NCBI GenBank assembly: GCA_007695095.1
Contig: REEL01000113.1
Coordinates: 1-53,794 of the forward strand
DNA length: 53,794 nt
Reading direction: 5' to 3'
Source of the DNA: Chitinophagaceae bacterium
GTDB taxonomy: Bacteria; Bacteroidota; Bacteroidia; Chitinophagales; REEL01
This document shows positions 5,366 through 11,602 of the stretch, one piece after another (position 1 is the stretch's first letter; the number at the start of each line of letters is the position of its first letter). A model generated the notes under the pieces. That model was not told the origin of the DNA, ran no database searches, and saw nothing but the letters and a program-made list of their open reading frames with translations. Both the position numbers and the translations under genes were made by a program.

Positions 5366-6610
5366 TTAACTTCCAAAATCATCGAAGGCAATATTTTCTT
5401 CAGGAACACCTAAGTCTTCAAGCATTTTTAGAGATGCCTGTAACATTAAAGGCGGTCCGCACAGGTAGTACTCAACCTCTTCCGGTTCAGGATGAGTTTT
5501 CAAGTAGTTATCATAAAGTACCTGGTGAATAAAGCCTTGATAGCCGTCCCAATTATCTTCTTCTGCAGGCTCTGAAAGAGCAACATTGTACTTAAAATTA
5601 GGGAATTCTTCTTCTATTTTTCTAAAGTGATCGGTATAAAACAATTCTCTTTTAGAACGTCCTCCATACCAATATGTAACTTTTCTATTTGTCTTTTCAG
5701 TATGGAACAAGTGGAATATATGAGAACGTAAAGGAGCCATACCTGCACCACCTCCAATATAAACCATTTCTTTATCTGTTGGCTTAATAAAGAACTCTCC
5801 GTAAGGTCCGGAAATAACAACTTTATCGCCGGGTTTTCTGGTAAAGACATAAGAAGAGCAAATGCCGGGATTTACATCCATCCATGTATTTTTAGTTCTA
5901 TCCCATGGTGGTGTAGCAATTCTGATATTCAACATAATAATATCGCCTTCTGCAGGATGATTAGCCATAGAATAAGCTCTAAAAACTTCCTCATCATTCT
6001 TCATTTGCAAATCCCACATTTTAAACTGATCCCACTCATCCCGAAAGCGTTCTTCTATTTCCATATCTTTGAAGTCGCATACTATAGGAGGAACATCAAT
6101 CTGAATATAACCACCAGGTTCAAAGTCCATTGACTCTTCTTTAGGCAAACGAACAACAAACTCCTTGATAAAAGTTGCTACGTTGTGATTCGAAACAACT
6201 TCACATTCAAACTTTTTAATACCGAAGATTTCTTCAGGTACTCCTATCGTCATATTTTCACGAACTTTGACCTGACATGCTAAACGCCATTTTTCTTTTA
6301 CCTCTTTTCGAGATAAATGATTAGTTTCAGTAGGTAAAACCTCACCTCCACCTTCCATGACCTGACATTTACACATGGCACATGTACCTCCTCCTCCACA
6401 TGCAGAAGGAAGAAAAACACTCTTTTCAGATAAAACTGTAAGCAAAGTGGAACCCGGAGACACTTCCATTGGATTATCTTTATCTCCGTTTACTACTATA
6501 CTCACATTTCCTGCAGGAACTAATTTTTCTTTAGCATATAAAAGTACTGCTGTCAATAATGCCATCACTATCAGGAAAGCTATAATTGAATAAACAACCG
6601 TTAATACCAT
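5366..6610 (-). CDS. nqrF: Na+-translocating NADH:quinone reductase subunit F
   Basis: This is the electron-entry subunit, which oxidises NADH through FAD and a [2Fe-2S] cluster. The 414-residue protein has one N-terminal membrane helix (~residues 3-26). The ferredoxin domain carries cluster ligands Cys71, Cys77, Cys80 and Cys112, the spacing of characterised NqrF. The FAD motif RAYS is at 211-214, and the glycine-rich NADH motif ([10 protein letters not shown]) at ~284-293. The C-terminus is the aromatic tail FDDFGS. It is the last gene of the complete nqrABCDEF operon, 11 bp after nqrE, and its transcript would end at the palindrome around 5312-5341. Length and all motifs are normal. Confidence 0.98.
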
Positions 6611-6621
6611 ATCTTATATTT

Positions 6622-7212
6622 TTAAACTTTAATACCCATAAAACTCATAAATGCAAGTCCCATGAGTCCTGTAATAATAAATGCAATACCTAAGCCTCGC
6701 AAGGCCGGAGGAATACTTGAATATCTGACTTTTTCACGAATTGCAGCTAATGCTATTATCGCTAAAAAGAACCCAAATCCACTTCCTAATCCAAAGAAAA
6801 CTGATTCTCCGAAAGAATACTCTCTTGCAACCATGAATAATGAACCACCTAAAATAGCGCAATTAACAGTTATTAAAGGAAGGAATATTCCAAGAGAAAC
6901 ATAAAGTCCCGGAAAAGACTTTTCAATAAGCATTTCTAATAATTGAACCATCGATGCTATAACAGCTATGAATACAACAAAGTTTAGAAAAGTTAAGTCA
7001 ACTCCGAAAATTCCGGTTTCCTTCAATAGGTACTCATGTATTAACCAATTTGCAGGAACAGTAAAGCCCAAACAAAATATTACAGCAAGACCAAGTCCAA
7101 ATGCTGTATTAATAGTTTTTGAAACAGCCAGATAAGAACACATTCCTAAAAAGTAGGCTAAAACCATATTGTCTATAAAGGCTGAGCGAATGAAAACATT
7201 TACAAAATCCAT
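6622..7212 (-). CDS. nqrE: Na+-translocating NADH:quinone reductase subunit E
   Basis: This is an integral inner-membrane subunit of 196 residues with about six hydrophobic helices. It carries Cys25 (MCSYLAVS) and Cys118 (VNCAILGG), the equivalents of the cysteines that with NqrD hold the intramembrane iron-sulfur centre. It lies between nqrD and nqrF with 11-bp gaps. Length and sequence fit the NqrD/RnfA superfamily; the Nqr assignment rests on the operon. Confidence 0.97.
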
Positions 7213-7223
7213 ATTGTATTATT

Positions 7224-7871
7224 TTAAGATATATCAACTAATTTAGTATTTCTGGCTCTTTGCCACCAAATCATAAGACCTATAACAAACATTGCTGCTG
7301 CGGGTGTTAACATCATACCATTCTGAAAAAATTCAATTTCAGAAAGATAAGGAACCGCCCATCCAAATAATTCACCTTTACCAAAAAACTCTCTAAAAAA
7401 GGCTACACCAATCAAAATGATTCCATAGCCAATGCCGTTTCCTACACCATCGAGAAATGATGACCAAGGTTTATTACCCATTGCAAATGCTTCTAAACGT
7501 CCCATTACAATACAATTTGTAATAATTAGCCCAATGTATACAGACAACTGAGTGTACACATCATAACTAAAAGCTTTTAAGATTTGGTCTACTAAAATTA
7601 CCAAAAAGGCGATAACCGTAATCTGCACGATAATCCTTACTCTACTTGGAACCATTTTCCTGAGCAAGGATATAATTAAACTCGCAAAACCCATAACTGC
7701 AATAACGGCTAAAGTCATAACCATTGCAGGTTTGAGGGCAACTGTAACAGCAAGTGCTGAACAAATTCCTAACACCTGAACTGTTATTGGATTATTATCA
7801 TCTAAAGGGTCGGATAATAACTTTCTTTCTTTTTTCCCAAAAAGGGATTGTTTTTCTGCTGTAGTACTCAT
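7224..7871 (-). CDS. nqrD: Na+-translocating NADH:quinone reductase subunit D
   Basis: This is an integral membrane subunit of 215 residues with about six helices, the partner of NqrE in the same NqrDE/RnfAE superfamily. Cys37 (GICSALAV) and Cys120 (TNCIVMGR) match the conserved intramembrane cluster ligands. The first ~30 residues are a hydrophilic cytoplasmic extension with a Lys-Lys-Glu-Arg-Lys patch, only slightly longer than usual. The nqrC stop lies 3 bp upstream, which suggests translational coupling. Confidence 0.97.
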   Translation of the reverse strand: MSTTAEKQSLFGKKERKLLSDPLDDNNPITVQVLGICSALAVTVALKPAMVMTLAVIAVMGFASLIISLLRKMVPSRVRIIVQITVIAFLVILVDQILKAFSYDVYTQLSVYIGLIITNCIVMGRLEAFAMGNKPWSSFLDGVGNGIGYGIILIGVAFFREFFGKGELFGWAVPYLSEIEFFQNGMMLTPAAAMFVIGLMIWWQRARNTKLVDIS

Positions 7872-7874
7872 AAT

Positions 7875-8603
7875 TTATAAATTTACTTCGTCAACTTTAA
7901 TTCTGTCAAAAAAAGGTAAATATTTTTTCAAATCATCTCGTAGCATGTCTGTTACACCATCAGCAGTAACAGTAGCTCCTGTAAGGCCATCGACTTCATG
8001 ATCACTGTCTCTTGCTCCGCCTTTTCTTACATATATTGAAACGAATTCACCGTCATCATCTCTGATTTTTTTACCGATAAACTGGTCCTGAAACCAGTCG
8101 TCAGTAATTACAGCTCCAAGACCGGGTGTTTCAGCGGCATGACCAAATGAAGCCCCTGCTATGGTATTTAAGTCATCCTGCAGAGCAATAAAGCCCCATA
8201 TTTCATTCCATAGTCCGGATCCTCTCACAGGTACGATGTAAAACACTTCTCCATCATCACTTGTATATCTGTAAAGCGGAAGTTTTTGCTGTTCCAAGGG
8301 CTTCCTAACTTCTCTTCTGTGGTCAATCATTGAAGCTACGATAGGCTCTCCTTCATCATCTTTTTCAATTAAATTACCTTCGTGGTCTATGACCAATTCT
8401 TCAACCTGGCTTTCGTATACATCCAGAACTCTGTCTCTGTCTTCCATACCCACAGAACCCAAAATGTCCTGTTTATTGGCAAATGCAACATTAAAGTCCT
8501 GTCTTGGTTTTAAACCGGTTGCTGCCAATGCTAAAAGCAATGCCATTATGACTGTTAAAACAGCCATAAAAATTATCGTATAATTATTTGTATTAGACTG
8601 CAC
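7875..8603 (-). CDS. nqrC: Na+-translocating NADH:quinone reductase subunit C
   Basis: This subunit carries covalent FMN on a periplasmic domain. The 242-residue protein has one N-terminal transmembrane helix (~9-30) followed by an FMN-binding domain. The flavinylation motif is T-G-A-T with Thr211 as the expected phosphoester-linked residue (classical form S-G-A-T). The start overlaps the end of nqrB by 11 bp, which suggests coupled translation. FMN attachment needs an ApbE transferase, which is not in this window. Confidence 0.97.
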   Translation of the reverse strand: MQSNTNNYTIIFMAVLTVIMALLLALAATGLKPRQDFNVAFANKQDILGSVGMEDRDRVLDVYESQVEELVIDHEGNLIEKDDEGEPIVASMIDHRREVRKPLEQQKLPLYRYTSDDGEVFYIVPVRGSGLWNEIWGFIALQDDLNTIAGASFGHAAETPGLGAVITDDWFQDQFIGKKIRDDDGEFVSIYVRKGGARDSDHEVDGLTGATVTADGVTDMLRDDLKKYLPFFDRIKVDEVNL

Positions 8604-9798
8604 GACTTAACCTCCTTTTTATATTTGCTTGTAAAACGTAATGATCAATAAGTGGAGCAAAAACATTCATAAATAATATTGCCAACATCCATCCTTCCGG
8701 ATATGCCGGATTTAATACTCGAATTATCATACCTATTGCCCCTATTGAAAATCCATAAATCCATTTACCTACCTCGGTTTGAGCAGCTGTTACAGGGTCA
8801 GTAGCCATAAAGGCCATAGCAAAAAAGAAACTGCCTATTATAAAGTGATAATAAAACGGTACCTCCATAAACGGATTTAATGCCAGTAAGTTCAATATAA
8901 TTCCCATGAAAAGAGTTCCAATAATCATGGATAACATAATTCTCCAACTGCCAATTCCTGTAAAAATCAGAAGACCCGCGCCCACGAGAACAAATATTTT
9001 ATTCATTTCCCCAACGGAACCGGGTATAAAGCCCATTATCATATTGAAAACAGTATAATGCTCCGTTACAGCAGCCCAACCTCCGGTAGCGGCTAATGCG
9101 AGCGGAGTTGCCCCGGTCCAGCCATCAGCTAAAGCATTATTTTCTCCAACGTGAAGAAATCCGGCAAATATCTGATGTAAAAAATTGTAATCATAAGCTA
9201 CCCAAACTATATCGCCTGATATATGGGTCGGATAAGCAAAGAAAACGAAAACTCTGGCAGTTAGTGCAACATTTAATACATTCATGCCCGTTCCCCCAAA
9301 GGCTTCTTTAGCTATGATTACAGCAAATATTGTTGCAAAAGCAACCATCCATAAGGGAATATCCGGTGGCATAATCAAAGGTATGAGCATTCCTGAAACA
9401 AGGAACCCTTCTTCTACCTGATGTCTTTTGATAGCCGCAAACAAAAACTCAGTTGCTAATCCTGCAATATGCACTACTATAATTATCGGCAACAATTGCA
9501 AGAAGCCATACAAAGCTTTCTGTCCCAATCCGTCCAATAATCCCTCGTACATACCCATCGCAAAATAATGCTGATGGCCAATGTTAATAATTCCATGAAT
9601 CAGGCATAATTGCATGGCAATTACGACATGAAACATTGTCCTTTTTAAATCCATACCATCCCTGATATGTGTACCACTTTTTGTAGTATGGTTTGGCTGA
9701 AACAAAAAAGTTTCAATTGCATCATATGTGGTATGCAAAAACTTATTTTTCTCAGTTTTCTCTTTGACTGAATCAAGTAAATTACGTAATGGTTTCAT
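8593..9798 (-). CDS. nqrB: Na+-translocating NADH:quinone reductase subunit B
   Basis: This is the main membrane subunit. It carries covalent FMN and riboflavin and is central to sodium transport. The 401-residue protein has a cytoplasmic N-terminus with the family signature H-I-R-D-G-M-D-L-K-R near residues 44-53, then about ten membrane helices. The FMN site is T-G-A-T with Thr231, near the position of Thr236 in the Vibrio enzyme. It follows nqrA by 44 bp. No anomalies were seen. Confidence 0.97.
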   Translation of the reverse strand: MKPLRNLLDSVKEKTEKNKFLHTTYDAIETFLFQPNHTTKSGTHIRDGMDLKRTMFHVVIAMQLCLIHGIINIGHQHYFAMGMYEGLLDGLGQKALYGFLQLLPIIIVVHIAGLATEFLFAAIKRHQVEEGFLVSGMLIPLIMPPDIPLWMVAFATIFAVIIAKEAFGGTGMNVLNVALTARVFVFFAYPTHISGDIVWVAYDYNFLHQIFAGFLHVGENNALADGWTGATPLALAATGGWAAVTEHYTVFNMIMGFIPGSVGEMNKIFVLVGAGLLIFTGIGSWRIMLSMIIGTLFMGIILNLLALNPFMEVPFYYHFIIGSFFFAMAFMATDPVTAAQTEVGKWIYGFSIGAIGMIIRVLNPAYPEGWMLAILFMNVFAPLIDHYVLQANIKRRLSRAV

Positions 9799-9842: not shown

Positions 9843-11558
9843 CTATTCTTGTTCTCTTATAAAATCCAAGCCTTCTTTCAGGATTTCCTGAACAGGTATT
9901 TTTGAAGTACACACAAATTCGCACAATGCTAAGTCTTCTTCAGCAACTTCATAAATTCCAAGGCCTTCTATTAATTCATAATCTCTTACCATAATAGCTT
10001 TTAACAACTGCTGCGGATAAATATCCATAGGTAACACTTCTTCATATTGACCGGTTACAACAAATGCTCTGCGTTCACCATGGGTATTGGTATTGACCTC
10101 AAACTCTTCCTGCGGGAAAAATTTCCAGGGGAATGTCTTTGATAAACTAGGTCTGGCATAACTTGGTAACAACCAACCTAAGAATTCATAAAAATCACCC
10201 TCCTCCAATACTGAAACCATATCACTGTAAAATCCTATATAGCCATCTTTTTCAATACTCTTTCCACTTAAAACATCACCTGATACTATTCTTGAATTTT
10301 CAAGCTCCAAATTGTCATTAATTATACCTTTGACATTAGCTCCAATATAGCTTTCAAAGTATGTGGGTTGCTTGATTGTCGGTCCTGCAGCAACCATCAT
10401 TTTTTTAGTATTATAAATACCTTCATTAAACAATCGTCCGATTATAACAACATCCTGAGGGTTTATTACCCAAACCACTTCACCTTTATTTATAGGATCC
10501 AGGTGATGAATCTGTATACCTACATTTCCTGCCGGATGAGGACCGGAGAACCAATTAATTTGTACGTTTTTAGCTTCTGTATAAGTTTTGGATGGCTTTC
10601 TGTCTGCTGTTAGGTTAAGATGTACTTTCCCTTCTGTAAGTTTGTTCAAAGCATTTATACCGGTCTGGAAGTCATGTTGCTTACCTTCCATTATGAAGTT
10701 GTAGTTTGGTGCCAAAGGAGCACTCTTAAAACCTGAAATGAAAATTGCCTTTGGTTTATCTTCAGGATTTGCTGTTAAGTTAAAAGGGCGTTGTCTTAAG
10801 AAAGCCCATGCGCCACTTTCAAGCAAGCTTTTAATAACTTGTTCTCTACTTAAATCAGTAGGATTAGCTTTAGTGAATTCACGAAAATTTATTTCTTTGT
10901 CAGCTAAAATTACGATTTCTTCAATTGCTCTTTTAGCACCTCTTCTTATTTCTATAACTTCCCCACTAACAGGACTTGTATAGTTTACATCCGGTCTTGA
11001 CTTGTCAAAAAACAAGGGATCGCCCGCTTTAACCTCGTCCCCTTCACTTACATGTAGTTTAGGTATAGGCTTAAGACCTACAAAATCTTTAGGATTAATC
11101 GCATAAGTTTCAGAGACAAAGTCATTTTTAACAACTTTTTTACTCCTTCCCTTTATCCGGATATCCATTCCTTTCTCCGTTTTAATAATTGTATCACTTC
11201 CTGCATAAGGGTGAATACTTTTCTGGGATGGAAAAATTTCATTGAAAGAAGGTAAAACAGAATAACCTTCATCCTCTTCTTCATCAAGTTCAGGTTTCCC
11301 TATATCACTTCTAACTTTTTCAGCGGTTACTTTTAAGAGCCGGTCAGTAAAAAACAGGATTCCAATTAAAATAATGCTTAAGGTTCCAATCAACAAAAAT
11401 AAAACAAGTCTATTTGTGTTTCCATCAAGAAACCCGCCTCCATCTTGTGCATACAAGTTCGATGAAAACAAAATTCCCAGTAAAAGGAATAAGGTTCGGT
11501 GAGGTTTATTGTAAATGGATTTTTTACAATTTCTTCTACTACTATTATGTTTTAACAT
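9843..11558 (-). CDS. nqrA: Na+-translocating NADH:quinone reductase subunit A with N-terminal membrane extension
   Basis: NqrA is normally a peripheral cytoplasmic subunit of about 450 residues implicated in quinone binding. Here it is 571 residues long. The normal domain begins near residue 125 (IIKTEKGMDIRIKG, like the usual N-terminus) and continues without a break. The preceding ~120 residues contain a signal-like hydrophobic segment (~22-38, ending in Tyr-Ala-Gln), a second strong transmembrane helix (~50-69), and an acidic linker (LDEEEDEG). No in-frame Met lies near the expected native start, so the extension appears genuinely translated. If inserted as it reads, the NqrA domain stays cytoplasmic but tethered. 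It is the first gene of the operon. Confidence 0.95.
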   Translation of the reverse strand: MLKHNSSRRNCKKSIYNKPHRTLFLLLGILFSSNLYAQDGGGFLDGNTNRLVLFLLIGTLSIILIGILFFTDRLLKVTAEKVRSDIGKPELDEEEDEGYSVLPSFNEIFPSQKSIHPYAGSDTIIKTEKGMDIRIKGRSKKVVKNDFVSETYAINPKDFVGLKPIPKLHVSEGDEVKAGDPLFFDKSRPDVNYTSPVSGEVIEIRRGAKRAIEEIVILADKEINFREFTKANPTDLSREQVIKSLLESGAWAFLRQRPFNLTANPEDKPKAIFISGFKSAPLAPNYNFIMEGKQHDFQTGINALNKLTEGKVHLNLTADRKPSKTYTEAKNVQINWFSGPHPAGNVGIQIHHLDPINKGEVVWVINPQDVVIIGRLFNEGIYNTKKMMVAAGPTIKQPTYFESYIGANVKGIINDNLELENSRIVSGDVLSGKSIEKDGYIGFYSDMVSVLEEGDFYEFLGWLLPSYARPSLSKTFPWKFFPQEEFEVNTNTHGERRAFVVTGQYEEVLPMDIYPQQLLKAIMVRDYELIEGLGIYEVAEEDLALCEFVCTSKIPVQEILKEGLDFIREQE

Positions 11559-11594: not shown

Positions 11595-11602
11595 CAAAGG
11601 TA
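11595..11602 (-). promoter_or_regulatory. Probable nqr operon -7 box
   Basis: The minus strand reads TACCTTTG, an exact match to the Bacteroidota -7 consensus TAnnTTTG, about 36 bp upstream of the nqrA ATG. No good -33 TTG is present at the usual spacing (only a TTTA about 22 bp upstream), so the call rests on the -7 box and its position. Confidence 0.45.

Follow-up and report, generated by a model that had tools for sequence, protein, structure and literature searches.

The NqrA subunit of the Vibrio cholerae Na+-NQR has no transmembrane (TM) helix; its C-terminal region is intertwined with residues 34-53 of NqrB, and it anchors NqrF through charge contacts (PMC9325719, PMC10643135), while the quinone site of this enzyme is located in NqrB (PMC10643135). 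That NqrA is devoid of TM segments has been put in general terms by a 2014 survey as well as by the structure papers (PMC4014512, PMC9325719). The subunit carries no cofactor and has no agreed function, and a review proposes that it either stabilises NqrB or positions NqrF (PMC12174285).

An NqrA of a different build is encoded in the window, by which we mean the whole stretch of 53,794 nucleotides analysed here. Its nqrA, the first gene of a complete and ordinary nqrABCDEF operon, occupies 9843-11558 on the minus strand and specifies 571 amino acids, in which the NqrA homology is preceded by 123 extra in-frame residues (residues 1-123, 11190-11558, minus strand). Homology to Pfam and NCBIfam models and to V. 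cholerae NqrA in PDB sets in at residue 124-125, nt ~11189, the Pfam NQRA_N match starting at residue 125; the whole protein scores 558 bits with NF003761 (cut-off 450) and 468 bits with TIGR01936 (cut-off 321), and in a PDB search V. cholerae NqrA matched the core with an E-value of 4e-87. The features of the locus are as follows.

5366-6610, minus strand: nqrF, with its own N-terminal TM segment (position and sequence)
6622-7212, minus strand: nqrE (position and sequence)
7224-7871, minus strand: nqrD (position and sequence)
7875-8603, minus strand: nqrC (family model)
8593-9798, minus strand: nqrB, with an ordinary N-terminus (family model and N-terminus comparison)
9843-11189, minus strand: NqrA core domain, residues 124-571 plus stop (NF003761, TIGR01936, Pfam, PDB)
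11190-11345, minus strand: predicted juxtamembrane helix and cytoplasmic linker with an acidic insert, residues 72-123 (D72, P103, spacer length)
11229-11261, minus strand: motif SVLPSFNEIFP, residues 100-110, consensus SxxPxxxExF (alignment A1)
11346-11408, minus strand: predicted TM helix (anchor), residues 51-71 (hydropathy, AlphaFold2 helix 47-86, kept in TM-only homologues)
11409-11447, minus strand: short loop, residues 38-50, predicted to lie outside, an orientation deduced from homologous loops nearly without Lys/Arg
11448-11558, minus strand: predicted signal peptide, residues 1-37, with a basic n-region and an h-region at 22-36 (sequence, homologue junctions, AlphaFold2 helix 19-38)
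11595-11602, minus strand: TACCTTTG, a -7 promoter element of Bacteroidota type, ahead of the long start (sequence, enrichment across loci)

The preliminary description of this DNA had placed some 120 extra residues, in frame and lacking an internal native-like start, ahead of the NqrA domain in an otherwise normal operon. All of this is borne out, the family-model and PDB boundaries giving 123 residues; its span of 11180-11558 was correct at the 11558 end, but the other end was about 10 nt off. Could the long start nevertheless be an artefact, with true translation beginning near the classical site, as it does in NqrA elsewhere in the phylum? We regard this as extremely unlikely. There is no in-frame ATG, GTG or TTG between codon 56 and Met131 of nqrA, and of these two bounding codons the former, a TTG, falls within the TM segment and the latter within the core motif EKGMDIRI. 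Moreover, 54 of 63 extended loci have the sequence TAnnTTTG, the established -7 element of Bacteroidota promoters, at most 120 nt ahead of the long start, where shuffled sequence would yield 4.7; the stretch of 120 nt that precedes the classical start position contained it in none of the 63. The extension is also conserved, and the same reading frame recurs in cultured strains. In three close pairs whose synonymous divergence could be measured, dN/dS was ~0.08-0.12 for the extension as against 0.04-0.05 for the core, so that, judged from these sequence comparisons, the extension is under purifying selection that is weaker than that on the core yet clear.

How widespread is this architecture? 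The distribution rests on samples, that of the order comprising 398 genomes, 153 of them with an NqrA above the cut-off; in a search of genome contigs, a single-protein query gave no match, and an alignment query gave matches from named organisms. A signal peptide plus TM segment, or a TM segment alone, was confirmed by reading in ~63 of the loci of the order, and the architecture of the extension is shared by 60-odd loci from seven families, including those of cultured Saprospiraceae (Phaeodactylibacter xiamenensis, Neolewinella aquimaris and Membranihabitans maritimus). The largest family, f18, is Saprospiraceae, which GTDB places in Chitinophagales; the extension is common there, and nearly all of the family's NqrA frames are 500-590 aa long. 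Beyond it, extended NqrA is present in families f1 (that of the window), f5, f6, f11, f19 and f22, whereas sampled members of f2, f7, f10, f12, f13, f14 and f17 start classically. Close homologues thus do not all start classically; had they done so, the extension would, by the criterion of the preliminary description, have been an artefact. The question of its spread, which that description had left unanswered, can be given a reply: it is common in Saprospiraceae and in six other families of the same order. Outside the order, in the sampled genomes of the class and of the phylum, nearly every NqrA frame measures 445-500 aa, a classical start was seen in the longer ones that were read, and extended NqrA was not found. 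Long frames elsewhere in the class (L084-L094) were considered as extensions and rejected, as they reflect either an open frame that happens to run on ahead of a classical start or an insertion inside the protein. Three loci of family f33 in the same class (L089, L090 and L091) combine a classical start with an internal insertion of ~50 residues after the second alpha/beta domain (the KSINDKYGQASDLF region of L090).

With regard to its history, the anchor originated within a single order of Bacteroidota; one gain, followed by loss and by replacement of nqrA from outside, is consistent with the data. On the core tree, the extended and non-extended states are separated by three changes (four when one long row is left out), and a constraint placing the extended rows and two nested losers in one clade gave a likelihood 12.6 above that of a quick search without constraint (p-AU 0.64). 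In genus g89, two genomes no longer have the anchor but still have the operon and a Saprospiraceae core; the anchor can therefore be lost without losing the enzyme, and is not essential. In genus g107 of f18 (L027-L033), the nqr genes were probably replaced by horizontal transfer, because the genus has a classical NqrA that falls outside the order in the tree and an NqrB whose N-terminus is of the outside type. One further locus, L026 (G063:C110, a 3.5 kb contig), has an NqrA that is very divergent for its genus (tree branch 3.3) and probably represents contamination or transfer.

Within the window's extension, two hydrophobic segments can be discerned, as had been described, although the first of them is most likely a cleaved signal peptide, leaving the mature protein with probably one TM helix. 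Segment 22-37 is moderately hydrophobic and is followed by a predicted cleavage site at A37|Q38, within NLYA|QDGG, and segment 51-71 is strongly so (Kyte-Doolittle 2.94). The alternative, implied by the two helices of the preliminary description, in which the first segment stays uncleaved and the two helices form a hairpin anchor with both termini inside, draws on the hydrophobicity of both segments and on AlphaFold2, which gives two helices (19-38 and 47-86; pLDDT 86-91 over residues 51-80, mean 89.8) ahead of an uncertain linker and a core of normal NqrA fold matching 7xk3_A and 8a1y_A. It appears unlikely, since the first segment is much less hydrophobic than the second, the loop between them is just a few residues long, an A/G/S-Q junction is found in 48 of 52 signal-bearing homologues, and in the TM-only homologues nothing precedes the helix. 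The latter number about 10, lie on several branches (e.g. MLTTVLIIVGVLLLLASILSITDNLIQIEAKK), and include two loci, L040 and L041, where the promoter element ends 24-25 nt before the ATG at which the TM segment starts, which therefore leaves no room for a signal peptide. A cleaved signal followed by a TM helix and a TM helix alone would amount to the same mature topology, with the N-terminus outside and NqrA inside. As to charge distribution, the first 12 residues of the signal-bearing homologues contain 2.4 Lys/Arg on average and the loop after the junction nearly none; the 20 residues after the TM segment contain 2.9 Lys/Arg versus 3.4 Asp/Glu, so that the positive-inside bias is weak.

In 53 of 63 homologues, 41-47 residues separate the TM segment from the core, pointing to a fixed distance from the docking site; the spacer of the window measures 52 and includes an acidic stretch (ELDEEEDE, residues 90-97). 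The acidic linker reported earlier is thus present, but as a local insertion that is not conserved in the alignment. A less probable reading is that the helix has a structural role as well, being packed at a fixed place in NQR and tuning the cytoplasmic module, a model that would fit the near-constant spacer, the near-invariant D72 and P103 and the SxxPxxxExF motif, and fits less well with the otherwise poor conservation of the TM and linker sequences and with the fact that loss is tolerated. A related and rather doubtful proposal is that the anchor helix packs beside the membrane subunits and alters movement of the NqrA/NqrF module, or links NQR to other respiratory complexes. Six loci (L022, L039, L052, L067, L082 and L083) have deviant extensions whose linkers of ~12-37 residues lack the usual SxxPxxxExF motif, and in these short-linker loci it is evident that the linker can be remodelled.

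Where might such an anchor have come from? Searches of Pfam and PDB for relatives of the extension returned no consistent match, no database family covers it, and the nqrA locus was the sole match when standalone copies were sought in the window's genome. The recurring best non-NqrA matches of the extension profile are the N-termini of CcoP, the cbb3 oxidase subunit, which in the same order display a signal peptide ending in A|Q, a short loop, a TM helix and a cytoplasmic segment, and profile comparison assigned the pair a probability of 94-96%. That the anchor was copied from CcoP is nonetheless distinctly unlikely. The likeness is limited to signal peptide and TM helix, vanishing when these are omitted (hhalign probability of 0.3-0.6% for the juxtamembrane part, which shows no relatedness), and the shared layout accounts for it equally well, so that common ancestry is unsupported; unlike the NqrA anchor, moreover, the CcoP N-terminus continues with another TM segment and a cytochrome c domain. 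A search for FixP_N in the window's genome gave no match at all. Separately, CcoP loci of several families (L180, L184, L185, L187 and similar ones) contain two successive signal-like/TM units before FixP_N in frames of 360-400 aa, as if a protein consisting of signal peptide and TM segment had been fused in front.

Taken together, the extension is probably a genuine N-terminal membrane anchor added to an NqrB-docking NqrA, a single pass with the N-terminus out and the C-terminus in, likely to aid targeting, assembly or retention. The signal peptide would bring nascent NqrA to the inner membrane and probably be cleaved at the A|Q junction; the following helix would then stay in the membrane with its N-terminus outside, and the linker and NqrA domain would thereby be left in the cytoplasm. 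There, to judge from the conserved core and NqrB N-terminus, NqrA presumably docks on NqrB and in turn holds NqrF, just as it does in V. cholerae, the anchor supplying what would be a second attachment beside this docking. The likely benefit would be that NqrA is targeted while it is being made, assembles more reliably and, together with NqrF, stays on the complex. The N-terminal docking segment of NqrB is intact in extended species, and NqrC and NqrF of the window still carry N-terminal hydrophobic segments of their own; the anchor is therefore an addition and not a replacement. A compensatory alteration of the NqrB N-terminus was considered and rejected, this region being unchanged. The tethering of NqrA that the preliminary description proposed is well supported by conserved architecture, promoter position, purifying selection and persistence of the TM segment where the signal has been lost, and an effect of the extension on NQR assembly may be called plausible. 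An altered quinone access, by contrast, found no support, given that the quinone site of the V. cholerae enzyme lies in NqrB (PMC10643135) and that the NqrB N-terminal region is unchanged.

The anchored NqrA is a real variant of a known enzyme, and apparently an undescribed one: full-text searches, which covered few subscription papers, returned no published description of it. Possession of an own anchor by the NqrA of much of a bacterial order, with its trimming or removal in single lineages, constitutes a natural experiment on the purpose of this subunit. The window's NqrA resembles that of V. cholerae (7xk3, 8a1y) in its core fold (35% identity, TM-score 0.94 by target length), operon context and NqrB docking region, and differs from it, the latter being held by NqrB alone, in its 123 extra residues with signal peptide and TM segment. 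With its TM segment at 51-71 it does not share the general NqrA trait of having none, and the anchored form is thus an exception to that statement. It has parallels in NqrC and NqrF of the same complex, likewise hydrophilic subunits tied by one N-terminal helix, of which NqrF also faces the cytoplasm; their anchors, however, are universal and have no cleavable signal peptide, whereas that of NqrA is confined to one order.
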